From the NCBI GenBank assembly GCA_030706405.1, contig JAUZOO010000008.1:186001-250000 (forward strand): DNA of 64,000 nt, in the 5' to 3' direction. Under the pieces are notes generated by a model, which saw only the letters and a list, made by a program, of their open reading frames with translations, did not search any database and was not told the origin of the DNA. Shown here in pieces: positions 7,195-14,577 of the stretch. Position 1 is the first letter of the stretch; each line of letters starts with the position of its first letter. The position numbers were made by a program, and so were the translations under genes. This DNA is from Bacteroidota bacterium (GTDB lineage Bacteria > Bacteroidota > Bacteroidia > Bacteroidales > JAAUTT01).

Positions 7195-7968
7195 TCAGGC
7201 TATATTTTTTCGCAACTCAGCCAAAAACTGATGCAAAGCCTTCGTATCTTTAGAATTCAGAATATCAATAAGAGAATTTATTTTATCGCGGATATTTTCC
7301 ACCTGTGGCAGCGTGTAAGGATTGAATAAAATTTCCGACAACAAATAATCGTTTTCGGACATCAGTCCTTTGGCTATCGCCATATGCTTTTTAAAAGTAG
7401 TCCCGGGTGCTTCCTGCTGTTTCATACAAGCTCCGAAGACCATTGTAGAAACGAAAGGAATGGACAATGAATACGCAATCGTTTCATCGTGTTCGGCAAA
7501 CGAATATTCGTAGATATTGATCTTAAGACGTGAATAAAAATCACGAAAAAATGCCTTTCCAAACGGATCGGATTCTTTTATGATAACCGCACTCTGGTCG
7601 GATAAATCCTTGATGTTTGCAAAGGTAGGTCCAAACATGGGATGCGTTGACACAAACCGATGTTTAAGCGTTTGGTAATAGGCCGGAAGTCCATTTTTCA
7701 CCGAGGTAATATCCGAAATAATACAGGTTTCGGGAATATACGGAAGTACAGTATCAAAAGCCGACTGGGTATATTCGAGACTTACGGCATTAATCAACAA
7801 ATCTGGATTAAACTCACGAATTTCTTCAACATTTTCGATACGCTGGCAACGAAACAGGTACTTCATCCGTTCCAGATTGGTATCATAAACAGCAACTTCA
7901 TAGTCGAGACAAAGGGTGTCGATAAAAAAAGCGCCCATATTCCCGGCTCCGAGAACAAGAATTTTCAT
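7195..7968 (-). CDS. tyrA: Prephenate dehydrogenase (short Bacteroidota form)
   Basis: 257 residues. It oxidatively decarboxylates prephenate to 4-hydroxyphenylpyruvate on the tyrosine branch. The NAD(P)-binding GAGNMG is at residues 7-12. SDITSVKNGL and HPMFGPTFANI are the conserved segments around the substrate-binding His and Ser. It lacks a C-terminal ACT regulatory domain and a fused mutase, and is shorter than most TyrA proteins. It is the last gene of the operon, 72 bp after aroC, and is followed by a terminator. The neighbouring chorismate mutase supplies its substrate. Confidence 0.85.
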   Translation of the reverse strand: MKILVLGAGNMGAFFIDTLCLDYEVAVYDTNLERMKYLFRCQRIENVEEIREFNPDLLINAVSLEYTQSAFDTVLPYIPETCIISDITSVKNGLPAYYQTLKHRFVSTHPMFGPTFANIKDLSDQSAVIIKESDPFGKAFFRDFYSRLKINIYEYSFAEHDETIAYSLSIPFVSTMVFGACMKQQEAPGTTFKKHMAIAKGLMSENDYLLSEILFNPYTLPQVENIRDKINSLIDILNSKDTKALHQFLAELRKNIA

Positions 7969-8040: not shown

Positions 8041-9012
8041 TTATTTGTTTAGCAATTTCAAATCCGCCAAAACGATTGCGGTTACAGCTTCTATAATGAC
8101 AGGGGCACGCAAGGCAACACAAGTATCATGACGACCTTTCACCACAAAATCGGAGATTTCGCCGGTCTTAAAGTTCATCGTTTGTTGTGTTTTTGCGGTT
8201 GAAGAAGTAGGTTTGATAGGCACACGGAAAATAAGATCATTCCCGTTGGAAATGCCGCCATTAATACCACCTGCATGGTTGGTACGTGTTTTTCCGTTCG
8301 TATCCACAAACCAGTCGTTGTGAACGCTGCCACGCATTTTAGCAGCTTCAAAACCAGAGCCAAATTCAATACCTTTGGTTGCCGGAACCGCAAAAATGAT
8401 ATGAGCCAGCATTGACTCAACTGAATCAAAATAAGGTTCGCCAAGCCCAATAGGCATGTTGGTGGCTACACATTCGATAACACCTCCAATGGTGTCGTTA
8501 TCGGCGATAGCCTGATCGATAGCTTTTTCAACATCCGAAATTCCACCGGCTTCCACAAGGGTAGCTTTTATGGAAATAGGGTTGATAATTTTCTTGGCAA
8601 CTACTCCTGCAGCGACAAGCCCTAATGTGATGCGGGCCGAAAAATGTCCGCCGCCACGATAATCCTCAAACCCTTTATATTTCTGGCTGGCCACAAAATC
8701 AGCATGACCGGGACGCGGAACTTCACGAAATTGCGAATAATCGCCCGAACGGGTATTGGTATTTTCGAACAGGATGGTAATCGGAGCACCGGTGGTATGG
8801 TCGTTAAAAACGCCGCTCACAATCTTAGGTAAATCGGCTTCCTGACGAGGCGTGGTACCTTTAGCTCCGCTCTTGCGACGGGAAAGATCGGCCTCGAAAT
8901 CGGTTGTTGTAAGCGGAATGCCCGGAGGACAACCATCAATCACAACACCAACCATAACTCCATGCGATTCACCAAATATGCTAATTCTGAATAATCTTCC
9001 AAATGAATTCAT
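8041..9012 (-). CDS. aroC: Chorismate synthase
   Basis: 323 residues, somewhat shorter than the usual 350-390. It converts EPSP to chorismate using reduced FMN. Signature segments are present: GESHGVMVGVVIDGCPPG near the N-terminus, RRKSGAKGTTPRQE, the block VPRPGHADF, DYRGGGHFSARIT (with the catalytic His) and GRHDTCVALRAPVI at the C-terminal end. The FMN/EPSP-binding Arg and His residues of these motifs are kept, so it should be active. The operon position is 29 bp after aroD. Confidence 0.95.
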   Translation of the reverse strand: MNSFGRLFRISIFGESHGVMVGVVIDGCPPGIPLTTTDFEADLSRRKSGAKGTTPRQEADLPKIVSGVFNDHTTGAPITILFENTNTRSGDYSQFREVPRPGHADFVASQKYKGFEDYRGGGHFSARITLGLVAAGVVAKKIINPISIKATLVEAGGISDVEKAIDQAIADNDTIGGVIECVATNMPIGLGEPYFDSVESMLAHIIFAVPATKGIEFGSGFEAAKMRGSVHNDWFVDTNGKTRTNHAGGINGGISNGNDLIFRVPIKPTSSTAKTQQTMNFKTGEISDFVVKGRHDTCVALRAPVIIEAVTAIVLADLKLLNK

Positions 9013-9041: not shown

Positions 9042-9671
9042 TTAAACTATCTCGTAAATATCTCTAAATTCCTCAACTGTAAGCTGGCCGGGCGCTGTAG
9101 CTTTTGCCCGGTTATAAGCGGCGAAGGTAAAATCGGCGCCAAGTAAAGGAGCTGCCACACGGGTAATAGCCCCGATATCGCCCATACAAAACGCAATGAG
9201 GTTGGAATAATTATCGTAAAGCCCCATGATACGTGCGCAATCAGCCGGTGTTTGAGCCATTACGGCAAGTTTAACCCTGTCGGCACCCCACTCAAACGAT
9301 TGGGTAATAATCTCATCCAGTTCTGCTGCGGTAGGGGTTTCTTCAAAATTATGATAGGAAATAATAACGCGCGAATTATTGGCTTTTGCAAAAGCTATAA
9401 GTTCCTGACGATAGGCTTCATCCGATTCGTATTCCACATCGACATAACCTGCACCGGCTTCGATTGCTGCTTTCAGAAGTTCGAGACGACGGTCGGTGTC
9501 AATATTCTCGGGTCGGCAAGTTGCAACGGTATTACTCTTTATAGCAAAAAGTCCACGAAACTGGTCGTCCGAAAAATCGAGCTGATCGATGCGTATTTCA
9601 GCAAATTCGGTTCGGGAAATGGCTTTTACGCATTCCTGAAAACTAAGTCCTGCAAGGCTAACACAAATCAT
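9042..9671 (-). CDS. aroD: Type I 3-dehydroquinate dehydratase
   Basis: 209 residues, a single TIM-barrel domain. It dehydrates 3-dehydroquinate to 3-dehydroshikimate through a Schiff base. The catalytic pair is visible: His107 in IISYHNF and Lys134 in DRVKLAV. Substrate-binding EIRID is at residues 25-29 and RPENIDTDRR follows strand 2. Its start overlaps the end of aroB by 14 bp, a sign of translational coupling. It is shorter than the enterobacterial enzyme (about 250 residues), having lost peripheral segments but not the active site. Confidence 0.92.
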   Translation of the reverse strand: MICVSLAGLSFQECVKAISRTEFAEIRIDQLDFSDDQFRGLFAIKSNTVATCRPENIDTDRRLELLKAAIEAGAGYVDVEYESDEAYRQELIAFAKANNSRVIISYHNFEETPTAAELDEIITQSFEWGADRVKLAVMAQTPADCARIMGLYDNYSNLIAFCMGDIGAITRVAAPLLGADFTFAAYNRAKATAPGQLTVEEFRDIYEIV

Positions 9672-10689
9672 TTACAATTTCCTCCATATCTTTAATATGA
9701 ACTTTTTGAACCACTCCGTTTCCTAGCCCCGAAAGCACAATAAGGTTGATGTAATCACCATCGCGTTTTTTGTCTTTAAGCACGGCATCGTAAACTTTGT
9801 TTTTATCAAGAAGTAATTTAACAGGTAATTTATAGTCAACCAATACCTTTTCGATACGGTCGGCTTCGGTTTGCGAAAGCATTCCTAATTTTACCGATGC
9901 TTTAGAAGCTAACACCATTCCGATGCTCACGGCTTCACCATGTAAAATACCAAGATTTTTTTCGATGGAATGTGCAAAAGTATGTCCGAAGTTTAAAATA
10001 CGGCGTTCACCTTTTTCCTTTTCGTCATTTTGCACAACGGTTGCTTTTATGCGTACCGATTCGTAAATCAGTTTTTCGAGCACCTCTTCATCAAGGTTTA
10101 GGGCTTTTTCAGCGTTTGTTTCGAGGTAAGCAAACAACTCTTTGTCGCGTATAGCGGCAGCTTTAATGATTTCGGCAAATCCGGAGATAAACTCTTTTCT
10201 GTCGAGAGTTTTAAACATCGACACATCGCAGATTACGAATTCGGGCTGGGCAAAAACGCCAACCATATTCTTGTATCCCTGAAAGTTAACCCCGTTTTTT
10301 CCGCCAACACTGGCATCGACCTGCGAGAGAAGCGTTGTAGAAACAAATCCGAATTTCAAACCACGCATAAACGACGACGCTGCATAGCCTGTAACATCGC
10401 ACACAATACCACCACCAACGGCTACAATAAAGGTTGAGCGATCAACTTCCAGACGGATAAATTCTTCAAAAATATGCTCAAGCGTTTTCATAGTCTTGTT
10501 TTTTTCGCCAAGACCAATTTCAACCACAGGGAAACCCTGCAATTGCGCGGCATAATGTTTCAGGATATTTGCATCGGTAAGGATAACAACTTTCTTTCCA
10601 TCCGGTAGGTAACTCCTCAGGTTCTCAAGCTTTTCGCCAAGATAAATGTTCGATTCGCCGGAACCCGCTTTAATGTTGATGGTACGCAT
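9658..10689 (-). CDS. aroB: 3-Dehydroquinate synthase
   Basis: 343 residues. It cyclises DAHP to 3-dehydroquinate with NAD and a divalent metal. The NAD-binding VAVGGGIVCDVTGYAAS lies at about residues 90-106, and QVDASVGGKNGVN and GFAEIIKAA follow. The metal ligands Glu/His are in the latter and in LNFGHTFAHSIE and LHGEAVSIGM. Full-length. It stands between the DAHP synthase gene (101 bp upstream) and aroD (overlapping). Confidence 0.95.
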   Translation of the reverse strand: MRTINIKAGSGESNIYLGEKLENLRSYLPDGKKVVILTDANILKHYAAQLQGFPVVEIGLGEKNKTMKTLEHIFEEFIRLEVDRSTFIVAVGGGIVCDVTGYAASSFMRGLKFGFVSTTLLSQVDASVGGKNGVNFQGYKNMVGVFAQPEFVICDVSMFKTLDRKEFISGFAEIIKAAAIRDKELFAYLETNAEKALNLDEEVLEKLIYESVRIKATVVQNDEKEKGERRILNFGHTFAHSIEKNLGILHGEAVSIGMVLASKASVKLGMLSQTEADRIEKVLVDYKLPVKLLLDKNKVYDAVLKDKKRDGDYINLIVLSGLGNGVVQKVHIKDMEEIVNDLC

Positions 10690-10790: not shown

Positions 10791-11876
10791 TTATTCCTCG
10801 TTCATTACGCGGGTTTGGTGATTAATCGATTCCTGGTGGATAGCCGAAAAAATCTTATTTACAAAATCTTCGCTCAGCCCTTTGGACAATCCCATGGTGG
10901 TACGTTTTTTCAGGATTGCGTCCCATCGTCCTGACTGAAGGATAGTGACATTGTTCTGTTTCTTGAACAAACCAATCTTCTCTGCAATTTTCATACGCTG
11001 TTCAAAAATGTTCAAAATCTCATCATCGTATTTATCAATTTGGGTACGAAGTTCTTCCAGTGTAGCAGCATGTTGTTTGTCTACATCCGAATGGCGAAGA
11101 ACCAGACGATCGAGGATACATTTAAGCGCATCGGGAGTTACCTGCTGGCTGGCATCGCTCCATGCTTCGTCGGGGTTGCAATGCGACTCGATAATAAGGC
11201 CATCGAAGTTCAAGTCCATAGCTCGTTGTGAAATATCAAGGATAAGATCGCGTTTCCCGCTAATATGACTTGGGTCAACAATAATCGGCAAATTAGGAAT
11301 ACGACGACGAAGTTCGATCGGAATCTGCCAGTGCGGAGCGTTACGGTAAGCACTCTTATCGTAGGTTGAAAAACCGCGGTGGATAGCACCTAATTTCTTT
11401 AAACCTGCATCGTTAAGACGTTCGAGAGCTCCAATCCACAATTCGAGGTCGGGGTTTACCGGATTCTTAACCAAAATAGGAATCTCAACGCCTTTTAAGG
11501 TATCGGCAATTTCCTGAACTGCAAAAGGATTTGCGCTGGTACGGGCTCCAATCCAAAGAATATCGACACCATATTTAACAGCTTCGTAAGCATGTTTGGC
11601 ATTAGCAACTTCAGTAGCAGTATACATTCCGGTTTCCTCTTTCACCTTTTTTAACCAGGGAAGACCAACAGAACCTACACCTTCGAACGCGTTGGGACGG
11701 GTACGTGGTTTCCAAATCCCTGCACGAAATATCTTCACTCCCATTTTAGACAACTGATGAGCTGTATCCAACACTTGCTTCTCTGATTCCGCACTACATG
11801 GACCAGCCATTACCAAAGGACGTTCGCTGCTGATACCGGGTAAAATAATTGACTCTAAATCTAAATTGATGCTCAT
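10791..11876 (-). CDS. Bifunctional DAHP synthase / chorismate mutase
   Basis: 361 residues. Residues 1-265 are a type I-beta (KDO8P-synthase-like) DAHP synthase: GPCSAES at 25-31, KPRTRPNAFEG, the metal-site RGFSTYDK region and DPSHISGKR at 201-209. Residues 270-358 are an AroQ chorismate mutase helix bundle (LEELRTQIDKYDDEILNIFEQR...). It condenses PEP with erythrose 4-phosphate and also makes prephenate, so it feeds both ends of this operon. Fusion with the mutase usually gives the synthase feedback inhibition by chorismate or prephenate. It starts 50 bp after pheA. Confidence 0.95.
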   Translation of the reverse strand: MSINLDLESIILPGISSERPLVMAGPCSAESEKQVLDTAHQLSKMGVKIFRAGIWKPRTRPNAFEGVGSVGLPWLKKVKEETGMYTATEVANAKHAYEAVKYGVDILWIGARTSANPFAVQEIADTLKGVEIPILVKNPVNPDLELWIGALERLNDAGLKKLGAIHRGFSTYDKSAYRNAPHWQIPIELRRRIPNLPIIVDPSHISGKRDLILDISQRAMDLNFDGLIIESHCNPDEAWSDASQQVTPDALKCILDRLVLRHSDVDKQHAATLEELRTQIDKYDDEILNIFEQRMKIAEKIGLFKKQNNVTILQSGRWDAILKKRTTMGLSKGLSEDFVNKIFSAIHQESINHQTRVMNEE

Positions 11877-11926: not shown

Positions 11927-12766
11927 TTATATAACTGATTTTCCCTTACAATATTCTCCCAAAATACCAAACTCACTGGTGAAGGGCCTAATGGAATTAA
12001 GGGCATGTTCATAAATTTTATAATCGGAAAATTCAACATCGACATAAAAGAAATATTCCCATTCCTTGCCAACGATAGGCAATGACTGGATTTTGGTAAG
12101 ATTTATGTCGAAATAAGAAAAGATGGAGAGTATTTTGGCCAGACTTCCAATTTCGTGAGCCAGCGAAAACTGCATTGAAGCCTTGTTTACCGGCTGGTCC
12201 AATTCAATTTCTTCGTCCTTATCGGCAAGGATAAGAAAACGGGTATAGTTCATCTTATTGGTTTCGATACTGGAATTCATGACTTCGAGCCCATATTTTT
12301 CGGCAGCCTGAGCGCTGGAGATTGCACCAATGCCCATCTGCTTTTTATCGGCAATATCCTTAGCGCTTAAAGCGGTATCAAAACTTTCGATTAAACGGAT
12401 GTGCGGGTATTCCTCAAAAAACTTCTGACATTGCAGGATTGCCATCGGGTGCGAATAAACTTCAGTAAGTTGGTCGATAGTCTGACCGGGCATTGCCACC
12501 AGATTTTGAATGATACGGAGGTAAATTTCTCCGATAATCTTCATGTTCGACTCGCGCAACAGGCTGTAATTTGGAAGAATACTCCCGGCAACCATGTTTT
12601 CTATGGCCATGATACCATAGTCAGCATTCTGGGTTTTAAGCGTTTTAAATAGGTCCTTAAACGTTAAGCTGGGCACTATTTCAATATTTTCACTCCCGAA
12701 ATAATGTAAGGCGGCAATTTCGTGGAAAGCCCCTGCCCCACCCTGGATGGCAATTCGTTTGACCAT
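11927..12766 (-). CDS. pheA: Prephenate dehydratase with ACT domain
   Basis: About 279 residues from the chosen start (MVKRIAIQGGAGAFHE). It makes phenylpyruvate from prephenate. Catalytic-domain marks are the N-terminal IAIQGGAGAFHEIAA, NMVAGSI and NYTRFLIL, whose Thr-Arg-Phe is the catalytic motif. A C-terminal ACT domain (FSLAHEIGSLAKIL...) should sense Phe; its usual ESRP motif reads QSLP. In-frame ATGs at 12793, 12802 and 12841 exist, but the one at 12841 lies inside the attenuator hairpin, and family members begin close to IAIQGGAG. It is the first structural gene of the operon, directly behind the phe leader peptide and terminator. Confidence 0.92.
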   Translation of the reverse strand: MVKRIAIQGGAGAFHEIAALHYFGSENIEIVPSLTFKDLFKTLKTQNADYGIMAIENMVAGSILPNYSLLRESNMKIIGEIYLRIIQNLVAMPGQTIDQLTEVYSHPMAILQCQKFFEEYPHIRLIESFDTALSAKDIADKKQMGIGAISSAQAAEKYGLEVMNSSIETNKMNYTRFLILADKDEEIELDQPVNKASMQFSLAHEIGSLAKILSIFSYFDINLTKIQSLPIVGKEWEYFFYVDVEFSDYKIYEHALNSIRPFTSEFGILGEYCKGKSVI

Positions 12767-12810
12767 TGTTTTTGTACTAGTTAAATTTTCCATTCGAGCC
12801 ATATTAAAAC

Positions 12811-12948
12811 AAAAAATCCCGAAATTGCTTTCGGGATTCATTTTTTATTATCTGTATTTACAAAACAATATCAATCCCGAAAGCATTTCAAGGTATAAAA
12901 AAAGTAAAACCAGAAACCAAAAAAGTTCCCGGCGTAGCTTTCAAAATT
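12811..12948 (-). promoter_or_regulatory. Four-segment transcription attenuator of the pheA operon
   Basis: On the minus strand four segments can pair in turn. Segment 1 AATTTTGAAAGC (12937-12948) pairs with segment 2 GCTTTCGGGATT (12873-12884) using three G-U pairs. Segment 2 pairs perfectly over 12 bp with segment 3 AATCCCGAAAGC (12827-12838). Segment 3 pairs with segment 4 TTTCGGGATT (12815-12824), followed by TTTTTT, a strong terminator. Segment 1 lies just before, and segment 2 covers the stop of, a Phe-rich leader peptide. Ribosome stalling at Phe codons would free segment 2 to sequester segment 3 and let transcription reach pheA. Confidence 0.88.
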
Positions 12949-12975
12949 GATTGTATGTAAAGTTGACTTCTTCAT
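12871..12975 (-). CDS. phe operon leader peptide (34 residues, Phe/Tyr-rich)
   Basis: ATG at 12975, TGA at 12871-12873. It begins MKKSTLHTINFE. Residues 18-27 read FFGFWFYFFY: nine of ten are aromatic. In all there are eight Phe, three Tyr and one Trp in 34 residues. The ORF lies 25-30 nt after the predicted transcription start, and its stop codon overlaps antiterminator segment 2, the layout of E. coli pheL. Its translation, not its product, should be the sensor: scarcity of charged tRNA-Phe (perhaps also tRNA-Tyr) stalls the ribosome and opens the operon. Confidence 0.88.
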   Translation of the reverse strand: MKKSTLHTINFESYAGNFFGFWFYFFYTLKCFRD

Positions 12976-13007
12976 TTTTATTTTTAGTGCCTTGTTTAAA
13001 AGCGCAA

Positions 13008-13015
13008 CAAACATA
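13008..13015 (-). promoter_or_regulatory. Promoter of the aromatic amino acid operon
   Basis: TATGTTTG matches the Bacteroidota -7 consensus TAnnTTTG. A TTG lies 20 bp upstream, where the -33 element is expected. The start would fall near 13000, about 25 nt before the leader-peptide ATG. Confidence 0.6.

Positions 13016-13203: not shown

Positions 13204-14577
<1,374 letters not shown>

Follow-up and report, generated by a model that had tools for sequence, protein, structure and literature searches.

The 64,000-nucleotide window analysed here, a stretch of the genome of a bacterium of the Bacteroidota (order Bacteroidales), very probably carries, on its minus strand, a classic ribosome-mediated attenuator of the trp/phe type, through which the charging of tRNA-Phe and tRNA-Tyr would control a pheA–tyrA operon. 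An earlier reading made from the letters alone (hereafter the sequence-only reading) had described a six-gene aromatic operon at this position, and the Pfam assignments bear it out, with six consecutive minus-strand genes: prephenate dehydratase (PDT; pheA, 11927–12793), a DAHP synthase fused to a type II chorismate mutase (10791–11876), 3-dehydroquinate synthase (aroB, 9658–10689), type I 3-dehydroquinate dehydratase (aroD, 9042–9671), chorismate synthase (aroC, 8041–9012) and a tyrA-like prephenate dehydrogenase (PDH_N, E 1.6e-9; 7195–7968). The products of this operon, from pheA through the shikimate genes to tyrA, are Phe and Tyr. The start codon of pheA is at 12793 or 12766; an ATG at 12841 is an unlikely start, because it precedes the terminator. 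On the other side of the element, a gene for a PLP enzyme of Cys/Met metabolism runs divergently (13216–14577, plus strand) and starts about 200 bp from the attenuator promoter; no Rfam riboswitch was found upstream of it.

The leader peptide is encoded by an ORF of 34 codons (MKKSTLHTINFESYAGNFFGFWFYFFYTLKCFRD, then a stop; 12975–12871) with an A-rich start region. Its eight Phe and three Tyr residues, as counted in the sequence-only reading, are confirmed, and there is a single Trp. The control codons, FFGFWFYFFY, are codons 18–27 (12924–12895). A promoter of the Bacteroidota type (13041–13008) precedes the ORF: the TAnnTTTG box that had been claimed is TATGTTTG at 13015–13008, and a TTG 20 nt upstream of it (13038–13036 or, in another placement, 13041–13039) fits such a promoter. 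Transcription is expected to start near 13001 on the minus strand, and an alternative ATG at 13014, which would give a longer leader, lies upstream of that point. Four segments follow the textbook layout. Segment 1, the potential protector (12950–12937), pairs with segment 2 (GCTTTCGGGATTGA, 12884–12871), which spans the final codons of the leader together with its stop. Segment 3 (AATCCCGAAAGC, 12838–12827) is common to the antiterminator (2:3) and the terminator (3:4), and segment 4 (12826–12815) with its U tract, AATTTCGGGATT TTTT (12826–12811 together), forms the 3' half of the intrinsic terminator (12838–12811), located between the leader ORF and pheA. Both the perfect 2:3 pairing of 12 bp and the 3:4 hairpin with U tract that were reported earlier are present in the window. 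Pairing of 2:3 and the terminator are mutually exclusive, and the duplex energies are -15.3 (1:2), -21.6 (2:3) and -13.4 kcal/mol (3:4). The leader region as a whole folds more stably than its dinucleotide shuffles (z -5.3). With eight F/Y codons in ten, the leader is the sole such short ORF on either strand of the 64 kb, where the next best has six, and among the top-listed F/Y-rich short ORFs of the window it alone has a terminator behind it. The window carries a single Phe/Tyr leader rather than a tandem.

The same arrangement recurs in relatives. Regions upstream of pheA were drawn from genomes of the same genus, order, class and phylum, giving 183 non-identical loci, of which 170 were counted as class Bacteroidia and 13 (L164–L176) as outside it; a leader was scored when a short ORF had at least six F/Y in ten codons. 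By this measure an F/Y-rich leader is present in 153 of the 170 Bacteroidia loci, which agrees with the expectation that Phe codons would be conserved in related genomes. Among the 17 Bacteroidia loci without one, several have a leader barely below the threshold or farther upstream, and none of the 13 loci outside the class has a leader at the cut-off. The measure is passed by 84% of the 183 loci, against 11% for the antisense strand and 3.6% for shuffles of the same regions; at eight or more in ten the values are 56%, 0.5% and 0.1%, and these percentages are not independent counts, as the loci share ancestry. An F/Y run by itself is weak evidence in AT-rich DNA, given the antisense rate. What is kept in the leader peptides is composition rather than sequence (FYFYFYF, YYFYFF, FFFFFF and FFGFWFYFF all occur), and beyond the Phe/Tyr run the remaining sequence is not conserved across Bacteroidia. 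A TAnnTTTG box occurs within 160 nt before the run in 70% of the 153 loci (8% of shuffles), with a peak of positions 40–50 nt before it. Taken together across the loci, the comparison indicates that an F/Y leader before pheA recurs through the class, from Bacteroidales to other orders.

A terminator follows the F/Y run in 129 of the 153 loci, as against 5.6% when the spacers are shuffled. Co-variation of the antiterminator was assessed by an alignment-free arm swap, in which the segment-2 region of each locus was paired with its own terminator arm and with arms from foreign loci. Duplexes with the own arm average -14.7 kcal/mol and those with foreign arms -9.9 kcal/mol (104 distinct arms), giving a z of -19, and none of 5000 permutations reaches the observed value. 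The own arm pairs better than foreign arms, so segment 2 changes together with segment 3 of the same locus. The swap keeps the kinship of the loci, which would improve the fit of foreign arms, not worsen it. The covarying stems proposed as a check of the sequence-only reading are thus found, in the form of locus-specific 2:3 pairing.

The spacing of these parts was examined with a modelled ribosome covering 18 nt before and 14 nt after the first base of the A site. In the window, an A site on codons 18–26 leaves segment 2 free, a ribosome at codon 27 covers it partly and one at the stop codon covers it fully; the corresponding probability of 2:3 pairing is 1.00 at codons 18–26 and 0.80 at codon 27, and it is 0 at every position from codon 30 through the stop. 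Segment 2 lies inside the footprint of a stop-codon ribosome in 98% of 123 loci. Full-leader equilibrium folds shift in the right direction in 31% of loci and in the wrong one in 2%, and only 14% switch strongly; as equilibrium switching is weak, the mechanism must rely on the order of synthesis. Folding in that order was carried out after the weak equilibrium test, and both results are given here. For the stage at which segment 4 does not yet exist, the mean probability of segment 3 being bound by upstream RNA is 0.75 when the ribosome stalls on the first Phe of the core and 0.14 when it has reached the stop (n=127); shuffling the spacer lowers the value for the first-core-Phe stall to 0.43 (n=127, p < 1e-20).

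ORF, codon run, terminator, antiterminator and their spacing and co-variation can be read from sequence and comparison. From these we infer that transcription would end at the terminator in the cell and that aminoacyl-tRNA would be the signal. In the proposed mechanism, a ribosome would follow RNA polymerase as the leader is made. When Phe or Tyr is scarce, it would wait on codons 18–27 and leave segment 2 free to pair with segment 3 once this is made, so that the terminator would be blocked and the operon transcribed. When both amino acids are plentiful, the ribosome would reach the stop codon, located in segment 2; with segment 2 covered, 3:4 would pair and transcription would end before pheA. 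In the genome of the window, an untranslated leader may additionally have its segment 2 held by segment 1. The idea of control by ribosome stalling, put forward from the letters, is thus supported by the leader, the terminator, the 2:3 co-variation and the footprint modelling.

Other explanations of the same features were weighed against ribosome-mediated attenuation. The leader might control translation, the ORF and hairpins gating ribosome access to pheA instead of termination. The terminator is separated from pheA by only a few tens of bases, and its flank could be masked; such control needs no U tract, however, and yet a hairpin with a U tract is the rule among the loci, far above the level of the shuffled spacers, and the spacing between terminator and pheA differs greatly from locus to locus. 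Translational gating is very unlikely. A second possibility is that free Phe or Tyr causes the nascent aromatic peptide to arrest its ribosome, as in TnaC, in place of stalling at hungry codons. The leaders are indeed markedly rich in aromatic residues, with the run ending near the position from which a ribosome covers segment 2; arrest of the TnaC type requires fixed residues, however, whereas only composition is conserved here, and an abundant amino acid would cause antitermination when the operon is unneeded; arrest of this kind is highly improbable.

It is barely conceivable that another RNA regulator, such as a T-box or a riboswitch, acts here with the ORF being incidental. A stable fold does exist upstream of pheA, but none of the Rfam families attains the gathering threshold, which also upholds the suspicion that Rfam-type searches may miss this element, and it is the run that is conserved class-wide, not the rest of the sequence. 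The T-box model has no match in the window. A search of a phage collection gave no match to the element. Chance, with a T-rich tract happening to read as Phe codons beside an ordinary terminator, can almost be dismissed. T-rich runs do yield F-rich ORFs, and the antisense controls that reach the cut-off illustrate this; against it stand the uniqueness of the window ORF in 64 kb of both strands and the recurrence of such an ORF at the same place throughout the class. The codons of the run are mixed across the loci (TTT 516, TTC 202, TAT 292, TAC 210), and this mixture, with its Tyr, TTC and TAC codons, and the proportion of Tyr among non-Phe core residues (60%) argue against a mere poly-T tract, which was rejected on the antisense and shuffle controls and the codon mixture.

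Two features ascribed to the attenuator from its sequence hold only in part. The four-segment order 1:2, 2:3, 3:4 is present in the window, where 1:2 pairing is strong (z -5.1), but 1:2 is not a conserved part of the design: it is absent in two of the three congeners (L002 and L048), and over 123 loci its mean z of -0.4 is hardly better than shuffles, so that a general 1:2 protector finds no support. Most loci have little space for it, because their leaders begin only a few codons before the run. The protector, found in textbook cases, is possibly dispensable. In the RNA of the window up to segment 3, without a ribosome, 2:3 is favoured over 1:2. By inference, most relatives would read through if their leader were untranslated, and the window might not.

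Sensing of Phe, the other feature, stands in that the Phe run is conserved; Phe alone does not, since Tyr is equally part of the run. In cores selected by Phe alone, Tyr accounts for 60% of the residues other than Phe, compared with 5.5% in the remainder of the leader. The switch thus probably responds to both amino acids, as would suit an operon that contains tyrA; in 35 of 40 loci, a homologue of tyrA occurs within about 9 kb downstream. A rule tying tyrA in the operon to Tyr in the leader found no support, as four of the five loci without a detected tyrA keep Tyr in the run. The fifth, L104 (genome G032), has a pheA leader, MRRNSFRFFFFFAFFFCNGRNGVSYLY, with a Phe-only core; the other five operon genes were not found within about 8 kb downstream of its pheA, and this locus is possibly a Phe-only switch.

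Some relatives carry the element twice. At 25 of the 170 Bacteroidia pheA loci, a pair of F/Y-rich leaders is separated by a terminator (one such case in the antisense control); in 20 of the 25 the second leader, too, is followed by a terminator, and the upstream terminator has an antiterminator of its own (mean z -3.5). Loci where each of the tandem leaders has a terminator behind it include L007, L021, L051, L052, L054, L079, L098, L100, L103, L105, L179, L182, L187 and L192, among others.

Leaders of other specificity occur in the genome of the window. Before hisG (L236 2095–2480, minus strand, G000:C12), two His-rich leaders, MNKHFAYGHHGIHHSMNCR and MTFNHNIEHHHGHLNHCD, stand in series, each with its own terminator before the gene, as a tandem His attenuator. 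Among Bacteroidales, 23 of 30 hisG loci have a His leader (none in the antisense control), two of the 23 with two leaders. A single Trp leader, MNNISLNRNWWWRLLYSISRNEE, with a terminator precedes trpE (L237 1282–1420); the Bacteroid-trp model scores it at 40.2 bits (L237 1262–1397), below the cut-off of 49, and annotation pipelines would therefore miss it. Before ilvD (L240 1243–1375), a single Ile/Leu/Val-rich leader, MSIYSRIISLVVVVLVKRLPG, is followed by a terminator. No threonine leader was seen before the homoserine dehydrogenase gene in L239, a fragment that may stop short of the promoter. That the same genome has leaders for His, for Trp and for Ile/Val, all followed by terminators, is counted in favour of an attenuator at pheA.

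The closest known system is the pheL–pheA attenuator of E. coli, which combines a Phe-rich leader, alternative 2:3 and 3:4 hairpins and a terminator before pheA. The element of the window is alike in all of these and in its target gene; the corresponding Rfam model (RF01859, Phe_leader) scores 25.8 bits there (E 0.86), well below its threshold of 55. Unlike E. coli pheL, the leader of the window would read Phe and Tyr, belongs to an operon running from pheA to tyrA with shikimate genes, has a Bacteroidota promoter and shows a 1:2 pairing that is unconserved in its relatives. Peptide attenuators had been supposed to be little described in Bacteroidota, which is partly so, but Rfam already holds a peptide-leader attenuator from Bacteroidetes (RF01692, Bacteroid-trp), and a transcriptome of Flavobacterium psychrophilum points the same way. 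Bacteroid-trp senses Trp, whereas the leader of the window is of Phe and Tyr codons, and no RF01692 match is reported at the pheA leader (L127, the containing region). The F. psychrophilum study reports a structured 5' element without Rfam hits before pheA, conserved in further genera of the Flavobacteriaceae, and strong signs that amino-acid operons are attenuated through leader peptides (PMC9723704, 2021). That element shares its gene, its bacterial class and the lack of an Rfam hit with the one described here; the main text of the study gives no pheA peptide or pairing, and the element is here traced and tested over Bacteroidales and other Bacteroidia. In a map of B. thetaiotaomicron, sORFs reminiscent of leader peptides were recorded (PMC7366714). 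In a survey of 2010, the sole instance of peptide attenuation beyond Proteobacteria and Actinobacteria was the survey's own new case in Firmicutes (PMC2965389). Attenuation in bacteria was also surveyed by Lopatovskaya et al. (2010; cited in PMC4833913), and part of the class-wide pattern may already be on record. The tandem pheA leaders of some relatives, as opposed to the one leader of the window, resemble Salmonella mgtCBR, whose single leader contains a pair of short ORFs and tandem attenuators, with different signals and genes (PMC3641672).

Whether the loci descend from an ancestral Phe and Tyr attenuator of the whole of Bacteroidia, with no 1:2 protector, with termination dependent on full translation of the leader and with about one locus in seven doubled, is a tentative reading, with chances slightly short of even. 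If it is true, each doubled locus would carry two leaders, one after the other, and likewise two terminators. In teaching, peptide attenuation is treated as a mechanism of Proteobacteria. What is new here is a matter of extent: the spread across the class, the tandem Phe/Tyr attenuators and a wider range and more variants than were found described. The element of the window itself is a good but ordinary example of its type. Since a pheA attenuator of this kind has no Rfam model, the regulation of aromatic amino acids is largely absent from the annotations of a major gut and environmental phylum, and its loci, single or tandem, with or without a protector and with or without Tyr, form a natural series for testing what such a switch needs.
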